Positions 32,582 to 45,762 of a DNA stretch of 51,480 nt are shown here, piece by piece (the first letter of the stretch is position 1; each line of letters begins with the position of its first letter). The position numbers were made by a program, and so were the translations under genes. Source of the stretch: Oscillospiraceae bacterium. Its GTDB lineage: Bacteria; Bacillota; Clostridia; Oscillospirales; Ruminococcaceae. The notes under the pieces are model-generated. The model was not told the origin of the DNA, did not search any database, and saw only the letters and a program-made list of their open reading frames with translations. Location: the NCBI GenBank assembly GCA_017550285.1, contig JAFZPP010000035.1, positions 1-51,480 on the forward strand. The letters run 5' to 3'.

Positions 32582-32610
32582 TTGAAATTTCACCGGAAAT
32601 ATGCTATAAT
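32582..32610 (+). promoter_or_regulatory. Promoter of the TerB/ATPase defence genes
   Basis: TTGAAA (32582-32587), a 17-bp spacer, and TATAAT (32605-32610), with AAGGAG at 32631-32636 ahead of the start codon. Confidence 0.8.
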
Positions 32611-32648: not shown

Positions 32649-34271
32649 ATGAGCATGATGAGTCTTTTGAAACGGCTGTTCCGCGCCGCAGGAGAAGCAT
32701 ATCTCGATGAAAAGCTGCCTGCATCCAAGCCGCGGCAGTCCGCATCCGGCAGCAGGAGAAAAACGGCTGCAAAGAAACCGGCATCCGCTGCGCGAAAGCC
32801 CGCATCCCAGTCGGCGCGCCGCAAAACCGGTACGGCTTCGCATTCGGCGAAGGTCTACAGTGATCAGTCGATCCTTGCAAATCCGGCTGGCATGTTCACG
32901 CCGGTGCCGCAGCAGCTCCGTCAGATGCGCACGCTCTCCGGCTACAACAATCTCGACGGCACGCGCTCTATGGAAAGTCTGTTCTATCAGCAGGGCAAAT
33001 TCATGGAGCAGTATACAGACGATTATCACGAGCCGGTGCAGTGCGGCAGAGCGGTGCCGATGTACTATAACATGAAGGATCATGAGCTGCGCGCATATTT
33101 CACATGGCGCACGCTCTACCGGCAGGGCGCACTGCCTGCTTCACAGAATGCATTTCTGCTGCTTTATGCCTATGAGATTCTGAATCTGATCGGATTTTCG
33201 TCGGCGGAGTCTGCGTATGATGCGCTCGGGAATCTGCTGCGCGATTACGGCGAGCAGTTCCCGTCAGTGAAGAAATCACTGCTGCGCTGGATGCCCGATT
33301 TTGCCGCATATTATCATCTGCCTTACCGTCTCGAGGATGAAAAAGAGGCGGCAGAGATTACGGTTCTGCGCCACAGCTCCCATTCGGCAGAGAAGCTGCT
33401 GCTCGCGCTCGATACGCTCTCGAAATATCATATCAAGGATTCCAAGCTGTATCTTGCGGAGAAGGAAAAGGTCTCTGAACTGCTGAAAGCGGTGTATCAG
33501 GCAATGCTGATGCATTACGCAGAGCAGAAGAATCAGTCATTTTCGGCGTATCTGCTCGGCGAACAGAGCCGCGCAGAGCATCTGATGTTTGAGGGCGCCG
33601 TATTCTGTCACCGCAGCATTCAGGCGGACGGCAGCTACCGTCTTTCGCCGCTCTGCGTCTATCACTGCTGCAAAGGAAAATGGGCGAAGGAAACATTCTG
33701 CTCCAAGCCGCATACCGACCGAGTCGGCGCACTGCTCCGCACCTTCGATGCGATGCTGCGCGAAAAGCTGAATTTCAAAGGGAAGCTGAAATCCGGCGAA
33801 TTGCCCGAGGGCGATGCGGAGATCATCCGGAAAGCAATCGACGACTGGTTTGCAGAGCAGGCGCGCAAAAATGCGCCGGTCATTACGCTGAATGAAGCAG
33901 AGCTTGCGGAAATCCGGAAGGCTGCCGAACATACAACCGATATGCTGACGCTGCCGGAGGATGAGATCACCGAAGCCGCTGCACCGGTCCCCGAACCGGC
34001 AGCGCCCGATGAAGACGATGAACCCGACGACAGCGAGATTCCCGATCTGCCGCTGAGCGCACCGGCAATGGCGCTGCTGATCTGCCTTGCGACGGGCGAA
34101 TCCTATCAGCCGCTTGTCGATGCCGGACAGATGCTTTCGGTCTTGGCGGATGAGATCAACGAGAACCTCTATGACAGCTTCGGGGATACGATCATCGAAA
34201 TGCAGGATGACGGTACGCCGGTGCTGATTGAAGATTATCTGGATGATGTGAAAGGAATGCTGGAAACATGA
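32649..34271 (+). CDS. TerB-N/TerB-C domain protein, SngA-like component of a Shango-type defence system
   Basis: The 540-residue protein has a basic, disordered N-terminus of about 65 residues. A TerB-N-like domain follows (about 85-300), recognised by Y-N-M-KDHELRAYFTWRTLYRQG and NAFLLLYAYEILNLIGF. A middle helical part and an acidic Pro-rich linker (about 440-470) lead to a TerB-C-like C-terminus. These domains occur in tellurite-type stress loci and in phage-defence loci. Directly downstream is a BrxD-like ATPase and, further on, an Lhr/BrxHII-like helicase; TerB protein plus ATPase plus helicase is the composition of the Shango system (SngA, SngB, SngC). Its precise role is unknown. It overlaps the ATPase gene by 4 bases (ATGA). 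Confidence 0.82.
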   Translation: MSMMSLLKRLFRAAGEAYLDEKLPASKPRQSASGSRRKTAAKKPASAARKPASQSARRKTGTASHSAKVYSDQSILANPAGMFTPVPQQLRQMRTLSGYNNLDGTRSMESLFYQQGKFMEQYTDDYHEPVQCGRAVPMYYNMKDHELRAYFTWRTLYRQGALPASQNAFLLLYAYEILNLIGFSSAESAYDALGNLLRDYGEQFPSVKKSLLRWMPDFAAYYHLPYRLEDEKEAAEITVLRHSSHSAEKLLLALDTLSKYHIKDSKLYLAEKEKVSELLKAVYQAMLMHYAEQKNQSFSAYLLGEQSRAEHLMFEGAVFCHRSIQADGSYRLSPLCVYHCCKGKWAKETFCSKPHTDRVGALLRTFDAMLREKLNFKGKLKSGELPEGDAEIIRKAIDDWFAEQARKNAPVITLNEAELAEIRKAAEHTTDMLTLPEDEITEAAAPVPEPAAPDEDDEPDDSEIPDLPLSAPAMALLICLATGESYQPLVDAGQMLSVLADEINENLYDSFGDTIIEMQDDGTPVLIEDYLDDVKGMLET

Positions 34272-35587
34272 ATATCCCGAAACGAATGGCAGGCGCGGTG
34301 ATCCATGCGCTTCAGGGCGGCGTTGTGCCGCGCATCGGACTGCAATATATTGCGGTCGGCAGAGAGAAGGAGATCGAAGCGCTGCTGCATGATATCGGCG
34401 TCATGGCAGACGGCGGTGCATCGTTCCGGTTCATCAGCGGAAAATACGGCAGCGGCAAGAGCTTCCTGCTGCAAACGGTACGCAATTACGCAATGGACAG
34501 AGGCTTTGCCGTCTGTGACGCAGACCTTTCGCCGGAGCGCAGATTGCAGGGCGCGAACGGGCAGGGCATTGCGACCTATAAGGAACTGATGCAGAATCTC
34601 TCGACGAAAACGAAGCCGGACGGCGGCGCGCTTTCGCTGATTCTCGACCGCTGGATCAACGGCATCCGGACGAATGTCGCGGCGGAAAGCGGACTGGAGC
34701 TGACCGATCCTGAATTTCATAAGCAGGTCGAAAAGCAGATTTATCAGACGGTCGATTCGCTGAGCTGCCTTGTCCACGGCTTTGATTTTGCGACGCTGCT
34801 GCGCATTTACTATCAGTCCTTTGTCAATGACGATGCGGAAACGAAGGCGAAGGTCATCAAGTGGTTCCGCGGCGAATATCAGAACAAGACCGAGGCGAAA
34901 AATGATCTCGGCGTGAGCATCTGTATCCGCGACGATGACTGGTACGAATATATCAAGCTGTTTGCGATGTTCTTAAAGCAGGCAGGCTATCAGGGGCTGA
35001 TTGTGCTCGTCGATGAGCTGGTCAATCTCTATAAGATTCCGCAGAGCATTTCGCGCGAGAAGAACTACGAAAAAATCCTGACAATGTACAATGACACGAT
35101 GCAGGGCAAGGCGCAGTATCTCGGCATTGTGATGTGCGGAACGCCGCAGTGCATGGAGGACCCGCGGCGCGGCATTTACAGCTATGAGGCGCTGCGTTCC
35201 CGTCTGGTTGACGGCAAATACTGCGACGGACAGAACAATCTGCATGCACCGATTATCCGCTTAGAGCCGCTGAGCTATGCCGAAATGCGTATTCTGGTCG
35301 AGAAGCTGGCGGAGATTCATGCGGTGCTCTATGATTATGAGCAGATTGTCACTGCGGCGGATATGGATGCCTTCATCAAGATCGAGTACGGCAGAATCGG
35401 CGCGGACAGCAATCTGACGCCGCGTGAGGTGATCCGTGACTTTATCGAAGTGCTGGATATCATGCAGCAGCATCCGGGCAGCACGGTCGCCGGACTGCTC
35501 GGCGGCGATGCAGGCTTCACCTATGCGCCGACCACCCTCGAGGAGCAGGAGACCGTCGAGGACGAATATGCGGAATTTACCGTATAA
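34268..35587 (+). CDS. BrxD-like P-loop ATPase (DUF2791), SngB-like
   Basis: The 439-residue protein has an AAA/ORC-like P-loop with Walker A GKYGSGKS at 58-65 and Walker B LIVLVDEL with Asp249-Glu250. It resembles the BREX ATP-binding protein BrxD (DUF2791), including the N-terminal RMAGAVIHALQGGVVPRIGLQYIAVGREKEI segment and the C-terminal LTPREVIRDFIEVLDI block, which looks like a winged-helix remnant. In defence systems such ATPases are thought to load or power a partner helicase. It is translationally coupled to the TerB protein. The helicase is 1.7 kb away rather than adjacent. Confidence 0.87.
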   Translation: MNIPKRMAGAVIHALQGGVVPRIGLQYIAVGREKEIEALLHDIGVMADGGASFRFISGKYGSGKSFLLQTVRNYAMDRGFAVCDADLSPERRLQGANGQGIATYKELMQNLSTKTKPDGGALSLILDRWINGIRTNVAAESGLELTDPEFHKQVEKQIYQTVDSLSCLVHGFDFATLLRIYYQSFVNDDAETKAKVIKWFRGEYQNKTEAKNDLGVSICIRDDDWYEYIKLFAMFLKQAGYQGLIVLVDELVNLYKIPQSISREKNYEKILTMYNDTMQGKAQYLGIVMCGTPQCMEDPRRGIYSYEALRSRLVDGKYCDGQNNLHAPIIRLEPLSYAEMRILVEKLAEIHAVLYDYEQIVTAADMDAFIKIEYGRIGADSNLTPREVIRDFIEVLDIMQQHPGSTVAGLLGGDAGFTYAPTTLEEQETVEDEYAEFTV

Positions 35588-35648
35588 AAAGCACGATCCG
35601 CGGACAATCCGCGTATCCATATATTCATTAACCAAAGGAGATTTTAAC

Positions 35649-36305
35649 ATGAGATTCAGAAAGAGAGCGCTGCTGAGTGCAGCTATGATGTTGATTATGA
35701 CCGCCGGTATGGCAGGCTGCGGCAATACGCAGCAGAATGATCCGGCAGCGGATATCAAGGAGGAAGTCAAGCTGAATGACAAGCAGTTTGTCATTACGCT
35801 GTATCCGGAATATGCGCCTGCCACCTGCGAGAACTTTGAAAAGCTCGTGAATGACGGCTTCTATGACGGCATCATTTTCCACCGTGTCATTGCAGACTTC
35901 ATGGCGCAGGGCGGCGACCCGACCGGTACCGGCATGGGCGGCAGCGACCAGAACATCAAGGGCGAATTCAAGAACAACGGCGTGGACAATCAGCTTTCGC
36001 ATACGCGCGGCGTGGTTTCCATGGCAAGATCGGCTGATCCGGACAGCGCATCCAGCCAGTTCTTCATCTGCTATACGGATTCCTGCAATTTCCTTGACGG
36101 CGATTATGCAGCATTCGGCAAGGTGACCGAGGGTATGGAGGTTGTCGATGACTTCCTCAAGGTCGAGCGCGATATGAGCAGCAACGGCGAGCTTTCCGTT
36201 CCGCAGACACCGATTACAATGGACAAGGTAGAGATGTACGCAAAGGATTCCGAGGGTCATGACCGCGTTCTGGTCACGATGAAGGACTTTCTGCCGAAGA
36301 AATAA
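35649..36305 (+). CDS. Secreted lipoprotein peptidyl-prolyl cis-trans isomerase (cyclophilin type)
   Basis: The 218-residue protein has a signal peptide ending in the lipobox MAG-Cys24, so it is predicted to be lipid-anchored outside the membrane. The cyclophilin domain begins about residue 43 (FVITLYPEYAPATCENFEKLVNDGFYDGIIFHRVIADFMAQGGDPTGTG), with FHRV-F-MQGGD active-site features and ASSQFFI. Its task is folding of secreted proteins, possibly including the giant dockerin protease downstream, which is speculation. Start at 35649 with AAAGGAG upstream. It lies 61 bp after the ATPase gene in the same direction and separates it from the helicase, an unusual insertion. Confidence 0.95.
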   Translation: MRFRKRALLSAAMMLIMTAGMAGCGNTQQNDPAADIKEEVKLNDKQFVITLYPEYAPATCENFEKLVNDGFYDGIIFHRVIADFMAQGGDPTGTGMGGSDQNIKGEFKNNGVDNQLSHTRGVVSMARSADPDSASSQFFICYTDSCNFLDGDYAAFGKVTEGMEVVDDFLKVERDMSSNGELSVPQTPITMDKVEMYAKDSEGHDRVLVTMKDFLPKK

Positions 36306-36309
36306 GAAA

Positions 36310-36342
36310 AACGGCAGGGATCTGATTCAGGTCCCTGCCGTT
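36310..36342. terminator. Terminator between the cyclophilin and XRE genes
   Basis: AACGGCAGGGA (36310-36320) pairs with TCCCTGCCGTT (36332-36342). The T-run is on the leftward strand, so it best terminates the XRE transcript, though it can also slow rightward transcription. Confidence 0.8.
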
Positions 36343-36397
36343 CCGGAAAATACCGTGTAACGATTTATGCGTATTTGCGGTCTGTTTATATGAAGGC

Positions 36398-36610
36398 TCA
36401 TTCCGCTTCTTCCACAAATTCCAGTATATCACCCGGCTGACAGTGCAGCGCGAGGCAGATCGCATTCAGCGTGGAGAAGCGGATTGCACTGACCTTTCCG
36501 GTTTTGAGCTTCGAGAGATTGACATTGCTGACGCCGACCTTCTCGCTCAGCTCGTTGAGACTCATTTTTCTGTCCGCCATGACGCGGTCAAGCCGTAAAA
36601 TAATCGCCAT
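36398..36610 (-). CDS. Small XRE-family helix-turn-helix regulator (YozG-like)
   Basis: A 70-residue protein that is almost only a Cro/C1-type HTH: MAIILRLDRVMADRKMSLNELSEKVGVSNVNLSKLKTGKVSAIRFSTLNAICLALHCQPGDIL. It matches the small XRE regulators that accompany DUF2975 membrane proteins in Firmicutes. It lies 8 bp after the DUF2975 gene. It could bind the repeated TTTATCGTTWATC sites at 37182-37277, but this is inference. Confidence 0.92.
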   Translation of the reverse strand: MAIILRLDRVMADRKMSLNELSEKVGVSNVNLSKLKTGKVSAIRFSTLNAICLALHCQPGDILEFVEEAE

Positions 36611-36618
36611 ACTGCACC

Positions 36619-37089
36619 TCACAGAGTTTCGTCGGATTCCTGCTGAAGCATTGCACCGTAGCGGATCGTATGTGCGATAAACAGGAACAGCAGACCTACC
36701 ACAAGCGTTCTGGATGCTTCTACAATACATGGCATGACCGTTCCGCAAAGCACGAACGCCGCACCCGTCATCACCGCGGCATCCAGCAGAAACACCGCGC
36801 CGATGATGCGTACAAAGCGTGCATTTTTTGCCGTAAACGGGATACCGTTCTGTGCAATGCGGAAAAACATCAATGCCGCGATTGCCATGATGACGGTACT
36901 GATGCAGTATGAAACCAACGACTGTAAATACGCAAACCGCCCGTAGTTATCCGTGATGTTGAAGCCGACTCCCTTCCACAGAAAGACCGCAGCGATGATT
37001 ACGACATTGAAGAGTGATGCCAGAACGCAGACAATCCCGATCCAAAGGCTGCCCTTTTTGAGTTTTTCGATAATATGATCTTTGCTCAT
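36619..37089 (-). CDS. DUF2975 family membrane protein
   Basis: The 156-residue protein has four predicted membrane helices, around residues 17-38 (IGIVCVLASLFNVVIIAAVF), 58-77, 93-112 and 121-140, and the family feature FRIAQNGIPFTAKNARFVRIIGAVFLL. DUF2975 proteins are of unknown function and nearly always come with a YozG-type regulator, as here. The pair is leftward and divergent from the helicase gene, with a consensus promoter upstream. Confidence 0.9.
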   Translation of the reverse strand: MSKDHIIEKLKKGSLWIGIVCVLASLFNVVIIAAVFLWKGVGFNITDNYGRFAYLQSLVSYCISTVIMAIAALMFFRIAQNGIPFTAKNARFVRIIGAVFLLDAAVMTGAAFVLCGTVMPCIVEASRTLVVGLLFLFIAHTIRYGAMLQQESDETL

Positions 37090-37143
37090 TGCTTTTTCCT
37101 CCGAAAATGATTTTGCGGAGCCGTTCCTCTCTCCGTTGCTTGC

Positions 37144-37172
37144 AGTATAGCACGGAAATTTATGTTTGTCAA
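37144..37172 (-). promoter_or_regulatory. Promoter of the DUF2975/XRE operon
   Basis: On the minus strand TTGACA (37172-37167), a 17-bp spacer, and TATACT (37149-37144). The site TTTATCGTTAATC lies just upstream. Confidence 0.88.
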
Positions 37173-37181
37173 CTAGAATTT

Positions 37182-37277
37182 AACGATTAACGATAAATAT
37201 TATATGTTTGCACAATCCGGCATGACGGATTGACAGGCACCTTTATGCATTTTGTCATTAAATTTTTATCGTTTATC
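37182..37277. promoter_or_regulatory. Inverted pair of TTTATCGTTWATC sites around the helicase promoter
   Basis: On the minus strand 37197-37185 reads TTTATCGTTAATC; on the plus strand 37265-37277 reads TTTATCGTTTATC (12 of 13 identical, opposite orientation, about 67 bp apart). Between them TTGACA (37230-37235) and TGTCAT (37253-37258) form a possible helicase promoter with 17-bp spacing. The arrangement looks like an operator pair controlling both divergent units. Confidence 0.6.
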
Positions 37278-37303
37278 ATAAAATATACGGAGGGACAATG
37301 CGC

Positions 37304-39544
37304 ATGGATGCATTTGAACGCTATGCCCCCTTTATTCAGGAATATATTTACCGTTCGGGCTGGGAGAAGCTCAGAGCGGTACAGGTCGCGGCTGCGGATG
37401 CAATTTTCAATACTGAGGATAATGTCCTGATTTCGGCATCGACGGCATCGGGCAAGACCGAGGCGGCTTTTTTTCCCGTGCTGACGCTGCTGGAGGAGAA
37501 TCCGCCTGCTTCTGTCGGCGCGATCTATATTGCGCCGCTGAAAGCGCTCATCAACGATCAGTTCAGTCGCATGACAGAGCTTTGTGAACCTGCGGATATC
37601 AAGGTCTGGCGCTGGCACGGCGACGTCGGACAGTCGCAGAAGGCGAAGCTACTGAAAAATCCGTCCGGCATTCTGCAAATTACGCCGGAGTCGCTCGAAG
37701 CGCTGATGCTGCATAAGCATGCGATGATTCCGGCGCTGTTCCGCGATCTGCGCTTTGTTATCATCGACGAGGTGCATTCATTGCTGCGCGGCGACCGCGG
37801 CGGGCAGACGCTTTGCCTGATTGAACGGCTCTCGGATTTATCCGGCGCAAAACCGCGCAGAATCGGACTTTCCGCGACGATCGGCGACATTGAGCAGACT
37901 GCGGAATATCTTGGAACAGGCTCGGGCAGAAATACGGTTATCCCGCAGATTGCTGCGCAGAAATCGACATGGCGGCTTTCGATGGAGCATTTTTATGCAA
38001 TGGATACGCAGGCGGCGGAGGGCAAAGAGGTCGATGCACCGGAGCCGCTGGAGCAGGAAACCGACCATGCGCCGAACCACGCTGACCCTGCATACGGCTA
38101 TATTTTTTCGCATACGCAGGGGAAAAAATGTCTTGTGTTTGTCAATTCGCGCGAGGAATGCGAAGCGGTGACAACCTCGCTGCGGCAATACTGCGAATGG
38201 AATGACGAGCCGGACAGATTCCTGATTCACCACGGCAATCTGTCGGCAGCGATCCGCGAGACAGCGGAGGCGGTCATGAAGGACGAGGAGCAGATTCTGA
38301 CGACGGTCACGACCGCGACGCTCGAGCTCGGCATTGATATCGGAAAGCTGGAGCGCGCTTTTCAGCTTGATGCACCGTTTACGGTCTCCTCGTTCTTGCA
38401 GCGCATGGGACGCACCGGCAGGCGCGGTCTGCCGCCGGAGATGTGGTTTGTGATGCGTGAGGAGGAGCCGGAGGCGCGCGCGATGCTGCCCTCGACGGTG
38501 CCGTGGAAGCTGTTGCAGGGGATCGCGCTCGTGCAGCTTTATGCGGAGGAGCACTGGGTTGAGCCGCCGAAGCTCGACCGTCTGCCGTTCAGCCTGCTCT
38601 ATCATCAGACCATGAGCACGCTTGCCGCAAACGGTGAAATGACACCGGCGCAGCTTGCGGGCAGAGTGCTGAAATTGCAGCCGTTTCACCGCATTACGCA
38701 GGATGATTACCGCATTCTGCTGCGGCATCTGATTGAGAAGGATCATATTCAGCGCACGGAGCGCGGCGGTCTGATTGCAGGACTTGCCGGTGAGCGCGTC
38801 ATCAACAACTATAAATTTTATGCGGTATTTCAGGACAGCGAGGAATTTACGGTGCGTTCCGAATCACAGGAGATCGGAACGATTGTGCAGCCGCCGCCTG
38901 CCGGTGAAAAGATTGCGATTGCAGGACATGTGTGGGTCGTCGATGAGGTCGATTTTGACCGCCATGTTGTCTACTGTACCATGGTCAAGGGCAAGGTGCC
39001 GGCGTATTTCGGCGACTGTCCCGGCGATATCCAGACGAAGATTCTCGAGCGGATGCATCAGGTTTTGCAGGAGGATCAGCAGTATCCTTACCTGATGAAA
39101 AATGCGGTTGCGCGGCTGGAGCTTGCCCGTCATACGGCGGCGAATTCCGGCTTGCTGGAGGAGCCGCTGATCTGTCTCGGCGGCGATATGTGGGCGCTGT
39201 TCCCGTGGCTCGGCAGCTATGCATTTCTGGCAATGGAGCGTTTCCTGAAGGTGAAATGTGCGCAGAGGCTGTTTTTATCGGGACTGTCGCCGTCCAGACC
39301 GTATTTCCTGACATTTAAGATGAAGGTCGGCAAGGCGGAGTTTTTCCGGATTCTTGCAGAAGCGGCACAGGAGGCGTTTGATCCGATGGATTTGGTCTAT
39401 CCGGATGAGATTCCGCTTTTTGAGAAATATGATGAGTATGTTCCGGCGGAGCTGGTGCGCAAGGGCTTTGCATACGGCATTCTTGCCGTCGATGAGATGA
39501 AGGCGCGCATTCAGCAATGGTCTGAAAAATATACGGCAGGCTGA
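37304..39544 (+). CDS. Lhr/BrxHII-like DEAD/DEAH-box helicase, SngC-like
   Basis: The 746-residue superfamily 2 helicase has Walker A ASTASGKTEAA with Lys51, Walker B DEVH at 155-158, motif III SAT, motif V LELGIDIG and motif VI QRMGRTGRRG (366-375). It has a long C-terminal region as in Lhr-type and BrxHII proteins (winged-helix and beta-rich parts). This is the helicase part of Shango-like and related defence loci. The start at 37304 is preferred because GGAGGG is 9 bases away; ATG at 37298 would have a 3-base spacer. It is divergent from DUF2975/XRE and ends 26 bp before the dockerin protease. Confidence 0.9.
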   Translation: MDAFERYAPFIQEYIYRSGWEKLRAVQVAAADAIFNTEDNVLISASTASGKTEAAFFPVLTLLEENPPASVGAIYIAPLKALINDQFSRMTELCEPADIKVWRWHGDVGQSQKAKLLKNPSGILQITPESLEALMLHKHAMIPALFRDLRFVIIDEVHSLLRGDRGGQTLCLIERLSDLSGAKPRRIGLSATIGDIEQTAEYLGTGSGRNTVIPQIAAQKSTWRLSMEHFYAMDTQAAEGKEVDAPEPLEQETDHAPNHADPAYGYIFSHTQGKKCLVFVNSREECEAVTTSLRQYCEWNDEPDRFLIHHGNLSAAIRETAEAVMKDEEQILTTVTTATLELGIDIGKLERAFQLDAPFTVSSFLQRMGRTGRRGLPPEMWFVMREEEPEARAMLPSTVPWKLLQGIALVQLYAEEHWVEPPKLDRLPFSLLYHQTMSTLAANGEMTPAQLAGRVLKLQPFHRITQDDYRILLRHLIEKDHIQRTERGGLIAGLAGERVINNYKFYAVFQDSEEFTVRSESQEIGTIVQPPPAGEKIAIAGHVWVVDEVDFDRHVVYCTMVKGKVPAYFGDCPGDIQTKILERMHQVLQEDQQYPYLMKNAVARLELARHTAANSGLLEEPLICLGGDMWALFPWLGSYAFLAMERFLKVKCAQRLFLSGLSPSRPYFLTFKMKVGKAEFFRILAEAAQEAFDPMDLVYPDEIPLFEKYDEYVPAELVRKGFAYGILAVDEMKARIQQWSEKYTAG

Positions 39545-39570
39545 CCGGAATACTGCGGGGAGAAATGGAT

Positions 39571-42500
39571 ATGATAAAAAAACGCATTTGTGGCTTCGGA
39601 CTTGCGGCGGCGGTTGCCTGTCAGGTGATTCTGCCTGCGTTTCCGTCTGTGACTGCATCCGCTGCGGCAGAACGGGTCTGCTCGCTGGACGAATTTTCCG
39701 AGGATGTGCGCGAAGTCATGCGGACGGATGCCGACCGGCAGTTCTATGATTCGATTGTCTATGATGCGCAGGCGGGGACGCTTTCTGCCGACGGCGGCAA
39801 GCCGGTTTCCGGCTGCGGTGATCTGCGTATCAAAAACGGCGAGCTGATGCTCCGGACGGACGGCGATGCTGCATCCGGAACGGCATGGGAATCCTTTGCC
39901 GATGCCGCCGAAGACTGGGGCTATGAAACCGCGCAGCAGAACGGCAGAATGACGATCACCAATGAATTTCAGACCGCCCGTCTGATTGTCAAGGCGGAGG
40001 GCGGGATTGACCGGCACGGTGCCGTGTCGGCGGCGGAGGGCTACCGCGGTCTGCATATTCTGCAATATGCGGATTCGGCAGCGGCATACAGCGCCTATCA
40101 GGCATATCTCAGCGATCCTGCCGTGGAATATGTGCAGCCCTCGCACCGCATTACGCTCGATGCCGAGGCGCTTGCGGATGCGCAGGCAGAGGTATCGGGC
40201 AATGCACAGGTCGCGGATGTGGAAAGCGGCGTCTACAATTCATGGGGCGTTCCGCTGATCGGCACGGAGGACTTCATCAAAAAGTATCTCGATGCAGAGG
40301 TGCTGCCGGATGTGACCGTCGCGGTCATTGATACGGGCATCAATCCGGTTCCGGCGCTGTTTCAGGGCAGAATTCTCGAGGACGGCATCAATATCTCCGA
40401 TTCCGGTGATGACAGCGTGAATGATGACCTCTATCACGGCACGCATGTCACCGGCACAATCTGTGAAATGACGCCGAAGAATGTCAAAATTCTGCCGATC
40501 AAGGTGTTCGATGAGAACGGCAGCGCGTCCGATGAGCAGATTTATCTCGGTCTGATGTATGCGATTGAAAAGAATGCGGATATTGTCAATATGAGCTTCG
40601 GCGGTCTGGGTGTCAGTCCGCTGGAAATCGAGGCAATGACGATTGCGGATGAAGCCGGTATGATCTGCTGTGCGGCGGCAGGCAACAACGGCGACGATGC
40701 CGGATACTACTATCCGGGCAGTATCGCAAGCTGCATTACGGTCGGTGCCGTGACGCAGGATATGGAACGTGCGACCTTTTCCAATTTCGGCAAATTCGTC
40801 GATGTGGTCGCACCGGGCTTCGGCATCCGGAGCTATGTGCTCGGCGAGGACAGCCATCTTGAAGCGAAGAACGGTACCAGTATGGCTACGCCGCATGTAT
40901 CCGCATGCTGTGCACTGCTGCGGAGCTATGACAAGAAAATGACACCGCAGCGTGCGGAGATGCTGCTGCGGCTCAATGCAAAGGATCTGGGACCCGAGGG
41001 CTTTGACAAGGATTTCGGCTGGGGCTTTATCAATATGGAAAAGTTCCGCTGGGATGACGGTATCTGTCCGGCGCCGGAGTTTTCGGTCGAATCCGGCAAC
41101 TTCGGTCAGGCGCAGGAGGTTGAGATCACGGTTGATCTGGACGATGCGGAGATCTGGTATACAACGGACGGGACGAAGCCTTCTCCGGAGAACGGTACAC
41201 GCTATGAAAAGCCGCTGACGGTTGCAGAAACCACGCGGATTCTGGCAGTGACCGCGCGCAAGGGCTGGATCGGCAGCGCGGCAGCCGAGGCGGTCTATAC
41301 AATCAACGGCAAGGATGTCAGCGAGGCATATACCGTAAAGGACGGCGTTCTGGTATCTTACCGCGGCATCCGGAAGAAGGTCACCGTGCCGGATCAGTAT
41401 GACGGCAAGCCGCTGCGCGAGGTCGCGGCGGATGCGTTTGCGGGCAATCATTTTGCGGAGGAGATTCAGCTGCCGTCCTCCGTGAAGAAAATCGGCGACA
41501 GGGCATTTGCAAACTGCTCGGAGCTGGTGCGCATCTTTGCGACCGGTGCAGAGGAACTCGGCGAAGAAGCCTTTGCAGACTGCGAAAAGCTGCATGAGGT
41601 ACAGCTTGCCGACGGCGTGAAAACGGTCGGCGAAGGTGCATTCCGCGGCTGTACCGCACTGATGCGGCTTGATCTGGAAGGCTTGCAGACGCTGCCGGAG
41701 TCGGTATTCGAGGACTGTGCGATGCTGAAAACCGTGCATCTGCCGCATGTAACAGTCATCGGCGAAAATGCCTTCCGGAACTGCATTGCGCTGACAGAGC
41801 CGGAAATCTACTGGCAGCATGTGACCGCAGTCGGCAGCCGTGCCTTTGAAAACTGTACCGCATGGGAGGGCGATGTGCGCTTTTCCGCGCTGGAAACGCT
41901 CGGCACTGCCGTATTCTCCGGCGATATCATGCTGCGCAGTGTGATGCTGCCGGAAACATTCACCGTATTGCCGACAGACTGCTTCTACCGCTGCACCGGA
42001 CTGCGGCAGCTCGATCTGCCCGGCATTACGAAGATCGAAAGCGGTGCGCTCGCCACGCAGACCGGCAGAATGCAGCTGCTGTACAGCATCGACTATGCAA
42101 AAATTACGTATGTCGGGACAAATGCGTTCAGCGGATGCATGCTCGGCAGCGGACTGGATACACTGCGGTTTGATGCGCTTGAAAAGCTCGAATACCGCGC
42201 ATTCGGCGGCGCAATCGCCGGAACACTCGAATTTCCGAAGCTGACGGAGGTCGGCGATGCATCCTTTGCGGATGCACAGATCGACTGCGTCCGGCTGGAA
42301 CATGCAGAGAAGCTCTCCGCGCGGTCGCTGACGGGAGCCCGTTCGGTCTATCTGACAAATCAACTGCAATCTGCTGCGGACAGCGCGTTTGCGCAGAATG
42401 CGTATATTGTATCGGATGCGCCGGTTTCTGCTGTGAAGCTGCTGGCGGAAATGAAATTCTGCGATGAACCGCTGGTTCTGCGGCGGAGCAGCGAAAAGAC

Positions 42501-45500
42501 GGTGCTGACGCAGCATGATGCAGGCGCACTGCGCGTTCTGGCATGCGGCAATGCACTGCAATATCAGTGGTACTCAGTCAGCGGTGAGACGCAGACGCCG
42601 GTTGAAGGCGCCGTGATGCCGGAGCTGTATCCGGATACGTCCGCGGCGGGTGAATTTACCTACCGCTGCGTCATGACCGATGCGCAGGGCAAAACTGAGC
42701 AGGTGACATTCTCCGTCAGTGTGACGGAATCGGAGACGCTTCCTGAACTGCATCCGGATCAGTTCTGCGAACCGTCCGGAAGCGGCAGAGCCATGTGGAC
42801 GGTGATTCCGGCGGAATCTGGCACATACCGGATTTCCGCGTCCGGCGCGGCAGCGGTCTCCGGCGTGCTGACCGATGCTGCCGGTCAGGTGCTCGGCATG
42901 CTGAAAAGTCAGGCGGCAGGCGGCGAATTGCTCGAAGCCGAACTGACGAAGGACAAGCCCTGTTATCTCCGGACGGAGGCACTCTGGAAGGACGATTATG
43001 CGCTCTTTCTGACATCCGCTGCACCGGCGGAGATTGATATTGCCGCATGTACGCTGCAAGTCACGGTACAGCGCGCCTGCGAATTCGGATCGGGGTATCA
43101 GCCGGAGGTCGCTGTGCGGCAGCCGGGCGGTACGAAGCTCATTCCGGAGCAGGATTATGTACTGCGCTATACCAGACACAATCAGGAGGTTCGGATTCTG
43201 GCATACGGAATCGGACGCTGCTGCGGCTGCGGTGAAACATCCGTTACGGTCTATGAGCGGATTCCGCAGGATACGCCGGTACCGGTTCAGATCGGCTATG
43301 AAAAGGAAGAAGCGGTGTATATCTTTGTGCCGCAGACGACCGGAAAATACCGGTTCTACGGCAATGCGACCGCAGGCTATGCCGAAGAGCAGGCAGCGTT
43401 CAACCGTTCCGGCAGATATGCAGGCGGACAGAACCATGTCGGCATCAAGACAGAATGCTGGATTGCGGATACGCCGGAGCATGATGACAAGATATTTGCG
43501 CAGAGCGATTATTCGACGTCTTCCGGCAGCTATTTCAATTCGACTGTGATGCTCAATGCCGGACAGAGCTATTATATTGTCTGCACCGGTTCTGTCGGCG
43601 CGGATTATGCGCTGGTAATCTCGGCGGAGCGCTATGATCTCAGCGAGGCGACTGTCACCGGCGGCTTCATGGCAAGCTATGAGCCGGGCGAATATCATTT
43701 CCCGCGCATCAAGGTGCGCCACGGAGAGACCGTGCTCGAAGAGGGTGTCGATTATCAGCGGATTGACAACCGGAACGACATCCCTGGACTTGCGGAGATT
43801 ACGCTTGTCGGCATGGGCAAATATTACGGCAAACTCGTCAAGCAGTATGAGATGATCTATGAATCGCCGGCGGTTTCCGAGACGATGCTTGCGCTGGATA
43901 CGCCGGTCGAGGTCAGCTGTTCCGACAGCCGGCTCGAAACGCTCTGGTTCAAGGTCGATCAGTGCAAAACGGAAAACGAAACGATCCGCTACCGCGTGCT
44001 GAATGAACGCATCAGCGGCAGTATGATGCTCTATACACTCTATCGCTATGACGAAACGCTGCATACCTGTGCACGTGTGAAGCAGATGAACGGCGAACAG
44101 AATGACTATCTGCTCGGCAACGGCACATATATCATTGCGGTCGCAAGGCAGTATCCCGAGACGGCAGCAAAGGCAAAATTCTCCGTGCTGATTCCGTATT
44201 CGGTGACGGATGCAGAGCTGATTGTGACCGATCAGCCGTATACGGGCAGCGAGGTACCGATCCCCGTAAAGCTGCGCAATGCAGACGGCACCGAGCTCCA
44301 GTCGGGCAAGGATTTCCGCATTGTGTATAAGGACAGCAATATCATGCTCGGTGAGCAGCCGTTCGCGCTGTATGCGACAAACCGTACCTACGGCTATCAG
44401 GAAGGCGTTGTCAATATTTATCCGGCGCTTCCGGCGGATGCACCGCTGCTGGCGGTCGGCGAACACAGCGTCAAGGTCACGAAGCAGGACCGCCTTGCGG
44501 TTTACCGCGTGACTCCGGAAACAGAGACTGAATATGTGCTCTGCACTTCGGATGTTGCGGATATTGTCCTGCGTGTTTTCTCGCCGGAAGGGGAGATGCT
44601 CGAGCAGGATTACGGCGCCGGTACAAAGTCGGTGCGGTTTACAGTGCCTGCCGGTGAGACGCGCTTTGTCATGGTAAAATTCAACGGCACGGCGCGTGAA
44701 GGTACGATCAGTTTCCGTCTGGAAACTTCGCTGCGGCTGCTTTCGGAGTGTGAGATCACCGCGGAACCGCATGTCTGGACGGGCGAGGTCATCGCGCCGC
44801 AGGTGACATTCAAAGACGGCGACTATACGCTCATTGAGGGCACGGACTACCGTCTGCGCTATACGGCGGATGATGTCAATATCGGTACGGCGACGGCAAA
44901 CTATACCGGTCTCGGAAAATACTTCGGAAACTGCGACGTGGAATTTGAAATCATACCGGAGCAGCTGAAAGAAGCGGAATTCTTTGATCCGGTGCCGCTT
45001 GCGCTCGATGAATCCTACCGCTTCAATAAGAAGGAGCAGCAGTATGTGGTATTCAGCTACACCTCCGGCATTGACGCGGAGCTGAATGCTTCGTTCTATG
45101 AGGCGATGTGCAAGCTGACTGTACAGTGCTATGACAGCGAAGGCAATTTCCTGCAATATATCTTTTTCAAGACGACAGGCGAAATGAAGCAGAATGTGAA
45201 AGCAGGGGAGACAATCTACTTTGTGGTTTCGGCAACCGATATTTCCAGCCGGAATCAGACCTTCTGTCTGCTGCTGCATGATGACGGCAGTACGCATATG
45301 CGGCGGGTGCAGGATCAGGCGGGCGGCTTCGGCTACCGCATCGCGGCAGAGGGCGGTTATGCGGAAGCCTATGAAGTTCTCTCGGGCAAGCGCGACAGCT
45401 ATCAGCTTCTGCCGGAGATTGAAGGCGTGCCGGTGACATTCGTGCCGGAATCGCTGTTTGCCGATCTGCCGGCGGAGAAGGTTGTGATCGGATACGAAGG

Positions 45501-45762
45501 CTGTGCGGCTGCGGATTATGCCGACCGCTACGGGTTTATCTATCAGCAGGCGCGTTCGCCGGAGCATGAACCGGTGAAGGGCGATCTCAACGGCGACGGC
45601 AAATGCTCCGCAGCGGATATCACGGTATTCTCGGCGCTGCTTGCAGAGCACACGGGACTGGATCCCGAACTGATTCCCTTTGATGCAGCCGATCTCAACG
45701 GCGATGCAATCCTTGATATTCAGGATCTGTTCGCGCTGATGCGGCTGATCGTACAGGCATAA
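39571..45762 (+). CDS. Giant secreted S8 protease with BspA leucine-rich repeats and C-terminal dockerin
   Basis: The 2063-residue protein has a signal peptide (about 1-32, ending TASAAA), a propeptide-like region, and a subtilisin domain with catalytic Asp254 (VIDTG), His289 (HGTHVTG) and Ser437 (NGTSMATPH). A CHB_HEX_C-type beta-sandwich follows (about 503-575), then BspA-type leucine-rich repeats (about 600-965; repeated IGDRAFANCSEL-like units) and an Ig-like domain. A long series of repeated beta domains runs from about 1060 to 1980. The C-terminal dockerin type I (about 2002-2061) has two calcium loops, GDLNGDGKCSAADIT and ADLNGDAILDIQDL. The dockerin should bind a cohesin on a scaffoldin or cell-surface protein. 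The start at 39571 is 8 bases after GGGGAG. Confidence 0.93.
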   Translation: MIKKRICGFGLAAAVACQVILPAFPSVTASAAAERVCSLDEFSEDVREVMRTDADRQFYDSIVYDAQAGTLSADGGKPVSGCGDLRIKNGELMLRTDGDAASGTAWESFADAAEDWGYETAQQNGRMTITNEFQTARLIVKAEGGIDRHGAVSAAEGYRGLHILQYADSAAAYSAYQAYLSDPAVEYVQPSHRITLDAEALADAQAEVSGNAQVADVESGVYNSWGVPLIGTEDFIKKYLDAEVLPDVTVAVIDTGINPVPALFQGRILEDGINISDSGDDSVNDDLYHGTHVTGTICEMTPKNVKILPIKVFDENGSASDEQIYLGLMYAIEKNADIVNMSFGGLGVSPLEIEAMTIADEAGMICCAAAGNNGDDAGYYYPGSIASCITVGAVTQDMERATFSNFGKFVDVVAPGFGIRSYVLGEDSHLEAKNGTSMATPHVSACCALLRSYDKKMTPQRAEMLLRLNAKDLGPEGFDKDFGWGFINMEKFRWDDGICPAPEFSVESGNFGQAQEVEITVDLDDAEIWYTTDGTKPSPENGTRYEKPLTVAETTRILAVTARKGWIGSAAAEAVYTINGKDVSEAYTVKDGVLVSYRGIRKKVTVPDQYDGKPLREVAADAFAGNHFAEEIQLPSSVKKIGDRAFANCSELVRIFATGAEELGEEAFADCEKLHEVQLADGVKTVGEGAFRGCTALMRLDLEGLQTLPESVFEDCAMLKTVHLPHVTVIGENAFRNCIALTEPEIYWQHVTAVGSRAFENCTAWEGDVRFSALETLGTAVFSGDIMLRSVMLPETFTVLPTDCFYRCTGLRQLDLPGITKIESGALATQTGRMQLLYSIDYAKITYVGTNAFSGCMLGSGLDTLRFDALEKLEYRAFGGAIAGTLEFPKLTEVGDASFADAQIDCVRLEHAEKLSARSLTGARSVYLTNQLQSAADSAFAQNAYIVSDAPVSAVKLLAEMKFCDEPLVLRRSSEKTVLTQHDAGALRVLACGNALQYQWYSVSGETQTPVEGAVMPELYPDTSAAGEFTYRCVMTDAQGKTEQVTFSVSVTESETLPELHPDQFCEPSGSGRAMWTVIPAESGTYRISASGAAAVSGVLTDAAGQVLGMLKSQAAGGELLEAELTKDKPCYLRTEALWKDDYALFLTSAAPAEIDIAACTLQVTVQRACEFGSGYQPEVAVRQPGGTKLIPEQDYVLRYTRHNQEVRILAYGIGRCCGCGETSVTVYERIPQDTPVPVQIGYEKEEAVYIFVPQTTGKYRFYGNATAGYAEEQAAFNRSGRYAGGQNHVGIKTECWIADTPEHDDKIFAQSDYSTSSGSYFNSTVMLNAGQSYYIVCTGSVGADYALVISAERYDLSEATVTGGFMASYEPGEYHFPRIKVRHGETVLEEGVDYQRIDNRNDIPGLAEITLVGMGKYYGKLVKQYEMIYESPAVSETMLALDTPVEVSCSDSRLETLWFKVDQCKTENETIRYRVLNERISGSMMLYTLYRYDETLHTCARVKQMNGEQNDYLLGNGTYIIAVARQYPETAAKAKFSVLIPYSVTDAELIVTDQPYTGSEVPIPVKLRNADGTELQSGKDFRIVYKDSNIMLGEQPFALYATNRTYGYQEGVVNIYPALPADAPLLAVGEHSVKVTKQDRLAVYRVTPETETEYVLCTSDVADIVLRVFSPEGEMLEQDYGAGTKSVRFTVPAGETRFVMVKFNGTAREGTISFRLETSLRLLSECEITAEPHVWTGEVIAPQVTFKDGDYTLIEGTDYRLRYTADDVNIGTATANYTGLGKYFGNCDVEFEIIPEQLKEAEFFDPVPLALDESYRFNKKEQQYVVFSYTSGIDAELNASFYEAMCKLTVQCYDSEGNFLQYIFFKTTGEMKQNVKAGETIYFVVSATDISSRNQTFCLLLHDDGSTHMRRVQDQAGGFGYRIAAEGGYAEAYEVLSGKRDSYQLLPEIEGVPVTFVPESLFADLPAEKVVIGYEGCAAADYADRYGFIYQQARSPEHEPVKGDLNGDGKCSAADITVFSALLAEHTGLDPELIPFDAADLNGDAILDIQDLFALMRLIVQA

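Follow-up and report, generated by a model that had tools for sequence, protein, structure and literature searches.

The 51,480-nucleotide contig JAFZPP010000035.1 of an Oscillospiraceae bacterium (assembly GCA_017550285.1; referred to as the window) carries the three genes of the Shango phage-defence system, sngA, sngB and sngC, with sngC set apart from the other two by a cyclophilin gene and by a small module consisting of an HTH_26 regulator and a DUF2975 membrane protein. The set is core, not patchy, in the uncultured genus of gut bacteria to which this genome (G000) belongs. We think it probable that the locus is a complete Shango set descended from a contiguous ancestral cassette, and that it is now a vertically inherited part of the core genome in which sngC lies behind the HTH_26/DUF2975 module. 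Genomes and loci used for comparison are denoted by G and L numbers, respectively.

Identity of the three genes

The three genes and the promoter-like hexamers preceding them are listed below.

32582..32610, + strand: promoter-like hexamers for sngA, TTGAAA-17-TATAAT, read by eye and unscored
32649..34271, + strand: sngA, TerB_N/TerB_C protein, 540 amino acids (Pfam, PADLOC)
34268..35587, + strand: sngB, BrxC/BrxD-type AAA+ ATPase, 439 amino acids, with an ATGA overlap with sngA
37298..39544, + strand: sngC, DEAD/DEAH (BrxHII-like) helicase, 748 amino acids (Pfam, PADLOC)

An earlier, sequence-only reading of this DNA had proposed a TerB protein, a BrxD-like ATPase and an Lhr/BrxHII-like helicase in the order known for Shango, and both the open reading frames (ORFs) and their Pfam domains bear this out. 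SngA matched TerB_N (1.7e-16) and TerB_C (1.3e-16), both above cut-off, SngB matched BrxC_BrxD (6.4e-164) and SngC carries DEAD and Helicase_C domains; the A-B-C order and the common strand are kept. The assignment to Shango was confirmed by profile search, the top PADLOC defence profile for each protein being that of Shango: SngA at 1.9e-57, SngB at 7.6e-182 (compared with 3e-54 for BrxD) and SngC at 2.7e-276 (compared with 3.1e-123 for the runner-up, BrxHI/BrxHII). SngB is the only strong BrxC_BrxD match in the genome, one marginal match of 22.2 bits lying elsewhere. Its ATPase motifs are intact (GKYGSGKSF and LVDEL, which we take to be Walker A and Walker B, respectively), and its structural model is an AAA+ ATPase, weakly like RdrA, HslU and ORC. 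SngC carries DEVH and QRMGRTGR, and by sequence is nearest to Ski2-like helicases (ASCC3, Slh1 and Brr2) and to the 'ATP-dependent DNA helicase' entries 5v9x and 7lhl, which are presumably Lhr; SngA had no clear match in the PDB.

The ATGA coupling of sngA to sngB claimed in the sequence-only reading was located at 34268-34271, and the distance to the helicase gene, put there at 1.7 kb, was measured as 1,710 base pairs (bp) between the end of sngB and the start of sngC, a gap that holds three other genes. Contiguity of all three genes is usual for Shango, without formally defining it, but is not found here, and we therefore call the locus a Shango variant.

Distribution and inheritance within the genus

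SngB was found in 25 of the 30 genomes of the genus and in all 13 of the good ones (completeness of 90% or more, contamination of 5% or less); the five genomes that lack it are 75-88% complete. As a yardstick, HSDR_N, a domain typical of restriction genes, occurs in six of the same 13 genomes. Across the family, SngB was present in 39 of 297 genomes (29 of the 221 good ones, five of those 29 coming from this genus), and in a sample of the phylum it was present in 47 of 398, 22 of these at E<1e-100. The sequence-only reading had held that a trio fixed in all relatives would count against a defence set; fixation was found in the good genomes of the genus, but not in the wider family or phylum. 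In 29 of the 30 genus genomes SngB is accompanied by a strong SngC match (E<1e-100) or both are missing, the exception being G025, in which the sngB contig stops before sngC. By SngB, the nearest named relatives are metagenome-assembled genomes labelled Oscillospiraceae, Clostridia(les) or Ruminococcus sp., many of them bearing the name of the rumen or of another herbivore gut. Among 80 loci (of 220), SngB identity was 79-99% in 20 and at most 66% in the others. Plasmids also carry SngB relatives, at identities below 60% (691 records, 542 of them predicted conjugative, with Shango and other ATPases not sorted apart).

Inheritance of Shango within the main clade of the genus appears to have been largely vertical, with G017 as an exception. 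In a SngB tree of 96 rows (the genus being represented by its G genomes in place of the named records L094-L113, and the duplicates or partials L213, L123, L119, L122, L165 and L210, as well as rows below 340 amino acids, being dropped), all 18 rows of the main clade group together on a long stem with a support of 100. Several of its subgroups recur in an rpoB tree of 24 of the 30 genomes, for which the bootstrap had not settled: G010 with G011 and G028 (and the Shango-less G015), G021 with G029, and G007 with G023 (and the Shango-less G018). The absence of Shango from G015 and G018 may reflect incompleteness, because both genomes are only 75-77% complete. Pairwise distances correlated with those of rpoB at r=0.85, 0.76 and 0.82 for SngA, SngB and SngC, respectively, with none of 9,999 permutations reaching as high; this comparison covered 16, 16 and 15 chosen main-clade genomes, without G003, G014, G016, G025, G026 and G027 (no usable rpoB) and, by choice, without G017, G020 and G024, the first of which would lower the fit.

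All three genes are under purifying selection. The ratio of non-synonymous to synonymous substitution rates (dN/dS) over ten close pairs was 0.017-0.084 for SngB, 0.027-0.106 for SngC (nine pairs) and 0.046-0.337 for SngA, although in three of the ten pairs dS exceeded 1 for at least one gene and the ratio is unsure there. SngA is the fast part of the set, evolving several-fold faster than its partners, with a mean identity of 62% compared with 86-87% for SngB and SngC and 90% for rpoB. Together with the joint occurrence of SngB and SngC, this selection lends indirect support to the earlier suggestion that the three genes continue to function as one system despite the split.

The split junction and the box pair upstream of sngC

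The genes and sites that lie between sngB and sngC are as follows.

35649..36305, + strand: inserted gene for a cyclophilin-type peptidyl-prolyl isomerase with a signal-like start and a MAGC lipobox-like sequence (Pro_isomerase 5.6e-45)
36398..36610, - strand: HTH_26 (Cro/C1-type) regulator (HTH_26 1.8e-23)
36619..37089, - strand: hydrophobic (membrane) protein with DUF2975, its gene preceding that of HTH_26 on this strand (DUF2975 7.6e-6)
37144..37172, - strand: promoter-like site of DUF2975-HTH_26, TTGACA-17-TATACT, 11/12
37183..37197, - strand: box 1, TTTATCGTTAATCGT, one mismatch to TTTATCGTTTATCRT, adjoining the -35 hexamer of the regulator genes
37252..37279, + strand: promoter-like site upstream of sngC, TTGTCA-16-TATCAT, 10/12, with its second hexamer within box 2
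37265..37279, + strand: box 2, TTTATCGTTTATCAT, no mismatches, its end lying 18 bp upstream of the first ATG in sngC

The lipobox-like sequence was read by eye, a stricter script pattern giving no match, and the DUF2975 match is below threshold (26.3 bits for a cut-off of 27). We defined the module in this study as HTH_26 adjoining DUF2975 with a box upstream, which is the arrangement found here.

Comparison with relatives, as proposed in the sequence-only reading, showed that the set is contiguous elsewhere. Outside the genus, sngB and sngC are within 101 bp of each other in 46 of 60 named loci, and of the 55 loci usable for A-B, 39 have sngA and sngB overlapping by exactly 4 bp (L134, L140, L151, L167 and L170, for which the script returned an empty SngA frame, are not counted). 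In 20 family loci, some from the same genomes as the 60, the corresponding figures among loci having both genes were 13 of 17 and 11 of 14. The deep genus members G020 and G024 also have a contiguous A-B-C set, with B-C spacings of 14 and 2 bp, whereas the B-C gap of the main clade is 0.8-4.8 kb. With contiguity the rule among relatives outside the genus and present also in these two deep members, the split is a derived state. It is the B-C junction that varies: among the main-clade genomes read, only G017 (L092, 1453-5667), in which sngA and sngB are 1.3 kb apart and sngC is on a different contig, has its A-B coupling also clearly broken. The best genome-wide match to the cyclophilin is at the Shango locus in 22 of the 30 genomes.

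Unrelated small genes fill the same junction in other lineages (L122, L135, L137 and L157 of the R. albus group; L119 and L142; L059 and L060), and include, by names taken from reading the sequences, a P-loop-like 163-residue ORF or a 60-residue ORF in the R. albus group, NUDIX-like genes in L119 and AbrB/PIN-like ORFs in L059. In G010 (L077, 10597-11871) two tandem cyclophilin copies, apparently in a single frame of 434 amino acids, lie between sngB and sngC, and in the draft genome G014 (L017/L210) the sngB frame contains one TAG stop, through error or decay. The loci L054-L057 (genus g95) hold SngB relatives of 55-58% identity, with SngC at 40% adjoining in two of the four and no SngA detected by tblastn; they may represent a Shango subtype that begins with another gene.

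An empty site was found in G013 (88% complete), the rpoB sister of G020 (support 100/100). The order in G020 is an EF-G/YacP-type GTPase gene (minus strand), sngA-sngB-sngC and a subtilase gene, whereas in G013 only 192 bp separate the GTPase gene from the subtilase gene; on alignment of the two sites, the left flank is strongly homologous and the right flank gives short weak matches, with about 47 bp unaligned between. A homologue of the GTPase gene (>40% identity) also lies upstream of sngA in the main-clade genomes G004 and G023, which makes it probable that the occupied state is of long standing and that G013 has lost the set. The edges showed no evident integrase-like gene or repeat, in a reading made without a profile search for them.

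The sequence-only reading had given the helicase gene its own promoter region. Promoter-like hexamers are indeed present on both strands just upstream of sngC, but the three sites in the region compare with a shuffle mean of 2.1, so the promoter scan by itself proves nothing. The conserved pair of boxes is stronger evidence for separate control of sngC, which that reading had put forward as an inference and which, as a prediction, is supported here. The two copies of TTTATCGTTTATCRT are about 82 bp apart, at approximately -112 and -31 from the start codon, and are the only matches to the 15-mer in this genome with at most one mismatch, both falling between DUF2975 and sngC. The HTH_26 regulator is 87-99% identical wherever it is present at the locus in the genus. 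The pair (at most three mismatches) occurs in 15 of the 22 genus sngC loci examined: in 12 of the 13 with a near-full HTH_26 match, G023 being the exception, in G003, where HTH_26 is truncated, and in two (G021 and G029) of the eight without HTH_26, leaving none of the other six HTH_26-less loci with a pair. In the 12 loci having both HTH_26 and the pair, 22 of the 24 boxes have at most one mismatch; in G003, G021 and G029, which share an upstream neighbour, all six boxes have two or three. In G014, HTH_26 and sngC are on separate contigs, and in G002 and G016 the pair is upstream of a hydrolase-like gene inserted just before sngC.

The box is largely specific to this position. When 12 of the 30 genomes were searched whole, 11 of 20 matches with at most one mismatch, and all eight perfect ones, were at the locus, compared with four matches anywhere for a reversed control pattern. 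The same search of G011, G021 and G029 gave neither box nor reversed-control matches; nor is there a box at the sngC locus of G011, a genome in which no HTH_26 relative was detected at E<=0.001. We also scanned 31 HTH_26 loci, namely 28 of the best from the family list, two paralogues of this genome and the G009 locus L247, and found the box (at most two mismatches) upstream in 21, or in 20 of 30 without L247, whereas mononucleotide shuffles predict about 0.006 per locus. The 2-3 kb scanned around the other HTH_26 loci showed no sngC-like ORF. The family loci L248-L275, in which HTH_26 genes mostly stand beside DUF2975, have a common box, TTTAWYGTTTATCRT, which in many cases precedes a TTGACA-like -35 by about 10 bp; they have the look of a regulator family that is yet to be characterised and whose operator can be read from the sequence. 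We take the box to be a putative operator of the HTH_26 regulator and, because it lies over the predicted sngC promoter and upstream of 20 of 30 other HTH_26 genes, sngC is probably under a membrane-linked switch of its own.

The following course of events would account for these features. A contiguous sngA-sngB-sngC cassette was probably present in the chromosome of the ancestor of the genus, and in the main clade its B-C junction would have been opened by the cyclophilin lipoprotein gene and by the DUF2975-HTH_26 module facing sngC. SngA and SngB, coupled by their overlap, are probably made together from the sngA promoter, and sngC would now have a promoter of its own. HTH_26 probably binds both boxes, box 1 beside its own promoter and box 2 over the core promoter of sngC, where in the simplest reading it would block sngC. 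We infer this direction of regulation, as we do a signal upon which the DUF2975 membrane protein would release the block; SngC might then join SngA and SngB against invading DNA, in what we presume to be defence in this host. More tentatively, Shango may here have passed from a mobile defence cassette to a core and conditionally armed system, SngA and SngB being ready and SngC acting as a safety catch that is held by HTH_26/DUF2975 and freed by an envelope signal such as phage entry.

Neighbouring genes, alternative explanations and related systems

Downstream of the set lies one conserved neighbour.

39565..45762, + strand: secreted-looking subtilase with BspA-type leucine-rich repeats and a sub-threshold dockerin

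This protein of 2,065 amino acids follows sngC in most of the genus loci read, evolves fast (about 40-50% identity to most genus loci) and is also present without Shango; it is probably a bystander. We considered it as a fourth part of Shango and rejected the idea: a full-length relative (39-40% identity) is found in the SngB-less genomes G005, G012 and G013, and in G010 and G017 it is on a different contig from sngC, with other genes preceding it. Nor was a defence hotspot upstream of the subtilase supported by those three Shango-free genomes, none of which was profiled for defence; the gene is preceded by the GTPase gene in G013, by other genes in G012 (read from their opening residues only) and by the contig end in G005. 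The upstream flank in the window holds rsmH, murE, mraY, murG, murA and ftsZ above NCBIfam cut-offs, with a spoVD-like penicillin-binding protein and an FtsW-like protein below them, and the downstream flank holds the genes for L10 and L7/L12 (NCBIfam). PADLOC found no convincing defence protein among the 36 window ORFs outside the trio (a few short ORFs and HTH_26 were not scanned), its matches being generic: methyltransferase, penicillin-binding protein, coiled coil, sigma factor and subtilase.

Several observations weigh against the reading that we favour. G017 is deep in the rpoB tree yet nested inside the main clade in the SngB tree, and G020 and G024 join that clade in the SngB tree with a support of only 80. 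G023 has a full HTH_26 match and no recognisable boxes, ten of the 30 other HTH_26 loci, including both paralogues in this genome, have no box, and box 1 lies upstream of the -35, a position that fits activation as well as repression. A lax two-box scan, which reached 1.3 kb and missed L247, found two boxes 76-92 bp apart, without sngC, in six of the 31 HTH_26 loci, so that box 2 need not have evolved for sngC. These paired boxes, the unrelated genes at the B-C junction of other lineages and the eight of 22 genus sngC loci that keep sngC without HTH_26 all suit an explanation to which we give an appreciable, if minor, chance, namely that DUF2975-HTH_26 regulates only itself and landed here by chance, sngC being constitutive and the locus an ordinary Shango with a harmless insertion. 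The position of box 2, over or next to the core promoter of sngC, speaks against this, as does the near-perfect state of the boxes where HTH_26 is kept and their poorer state where it is truncated or lost.

Domestication of the set for a cellular role, such as chromosome upkeep under envelope stress, with antiphage action no longer its main task, is unlikely. Presence in all 13 good genomes, largely vertical descent, purifying selection, a membrane-linked regulator and core neighbours in the window with no convincing defence match would agree with such a role; on the other hand, the set is absent from the otherwise intact G013 site and so is not essential, SngA evolves faster than its partners, as expected of a part facing a changing opponent, and PMC10250203 describes phage protection by Shango in P. 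aeruginosa and E. coli. We consider it highly improbable that the trio is a remnant (BrxD plus BrxHII) of a bacteriophage exclusion (BREX) system. The ATPase and helicase families are related, and SngB and SngC do match the BrxD and BrxHI/BrxHII profiles, but the Shango profiles are ahead by about 420 bits for SngB and 506 bits for SngC, SngB scored 183 bits against the NCBIfam BrxD equivalog NF033438 (cut-off 350), SngA has both TerB_N and TerB_C, and PADLOC found no PglZ, BrxC or BREX methyltransferase, nor any other BREX gene, among the 39 window ORFs that it covered (all but a few short ones).

The complete set, now separated by the cyclophilin gene and the module, resembles the Shango of P. 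aeruginosa PA14 and E. coli in its TerB protein, ATPase and DEAD/DEAH helicase, all three matching the PADLOC profiles. It differs in being core, largely vertical and split, whereas that of PA14 is described as three genes lodged in a variable defence hotspot (PMC10250203). Shango genes are reported to occur outside defence islands too (PMC10924106), and Shango is listed among the defence systems found in rumen genomes (PMC13356809). Control of a defence locus by a local transcription factor is described for the BrxR-family WYL regulators (PMC9122601); here the regulator is HTH_26 with a DUF2975 membrane protein, and is predicted to act on one subunit gene. Shango of P. fluorescens is described as being under host regulation through Gac/Rsm-type (GRP) induction, a global system, in contrast to the local module predicted here (PMC11888443). 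Neither a genus-wide core Shango nor a local Shango regulator appeared in the titles and opening abstracts of the Shango papers among the matches listed, and a full-text literature search for DUF2975 gave two papers which, judged by title and opening abstract, deal with other subjects. A search for YozG and YoaS, which we take to be the partner names in B. subtilis, gave no relevant paper among the matches listed.

The locus bears on the means by which hosts are spared damage from their own defence systems and on the passage of a mobile system into the core genome, and it presents, within one genus, a graded series of contiguous cassette, empty site, split cassette and loss of the module with weakened boxes. 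Because the predicted switch comprises one DNA box and one protein of 70 residues, it is directly testable, and the box suggests an operator for a widespread family of regulators, HTH_26 with DUF2975.

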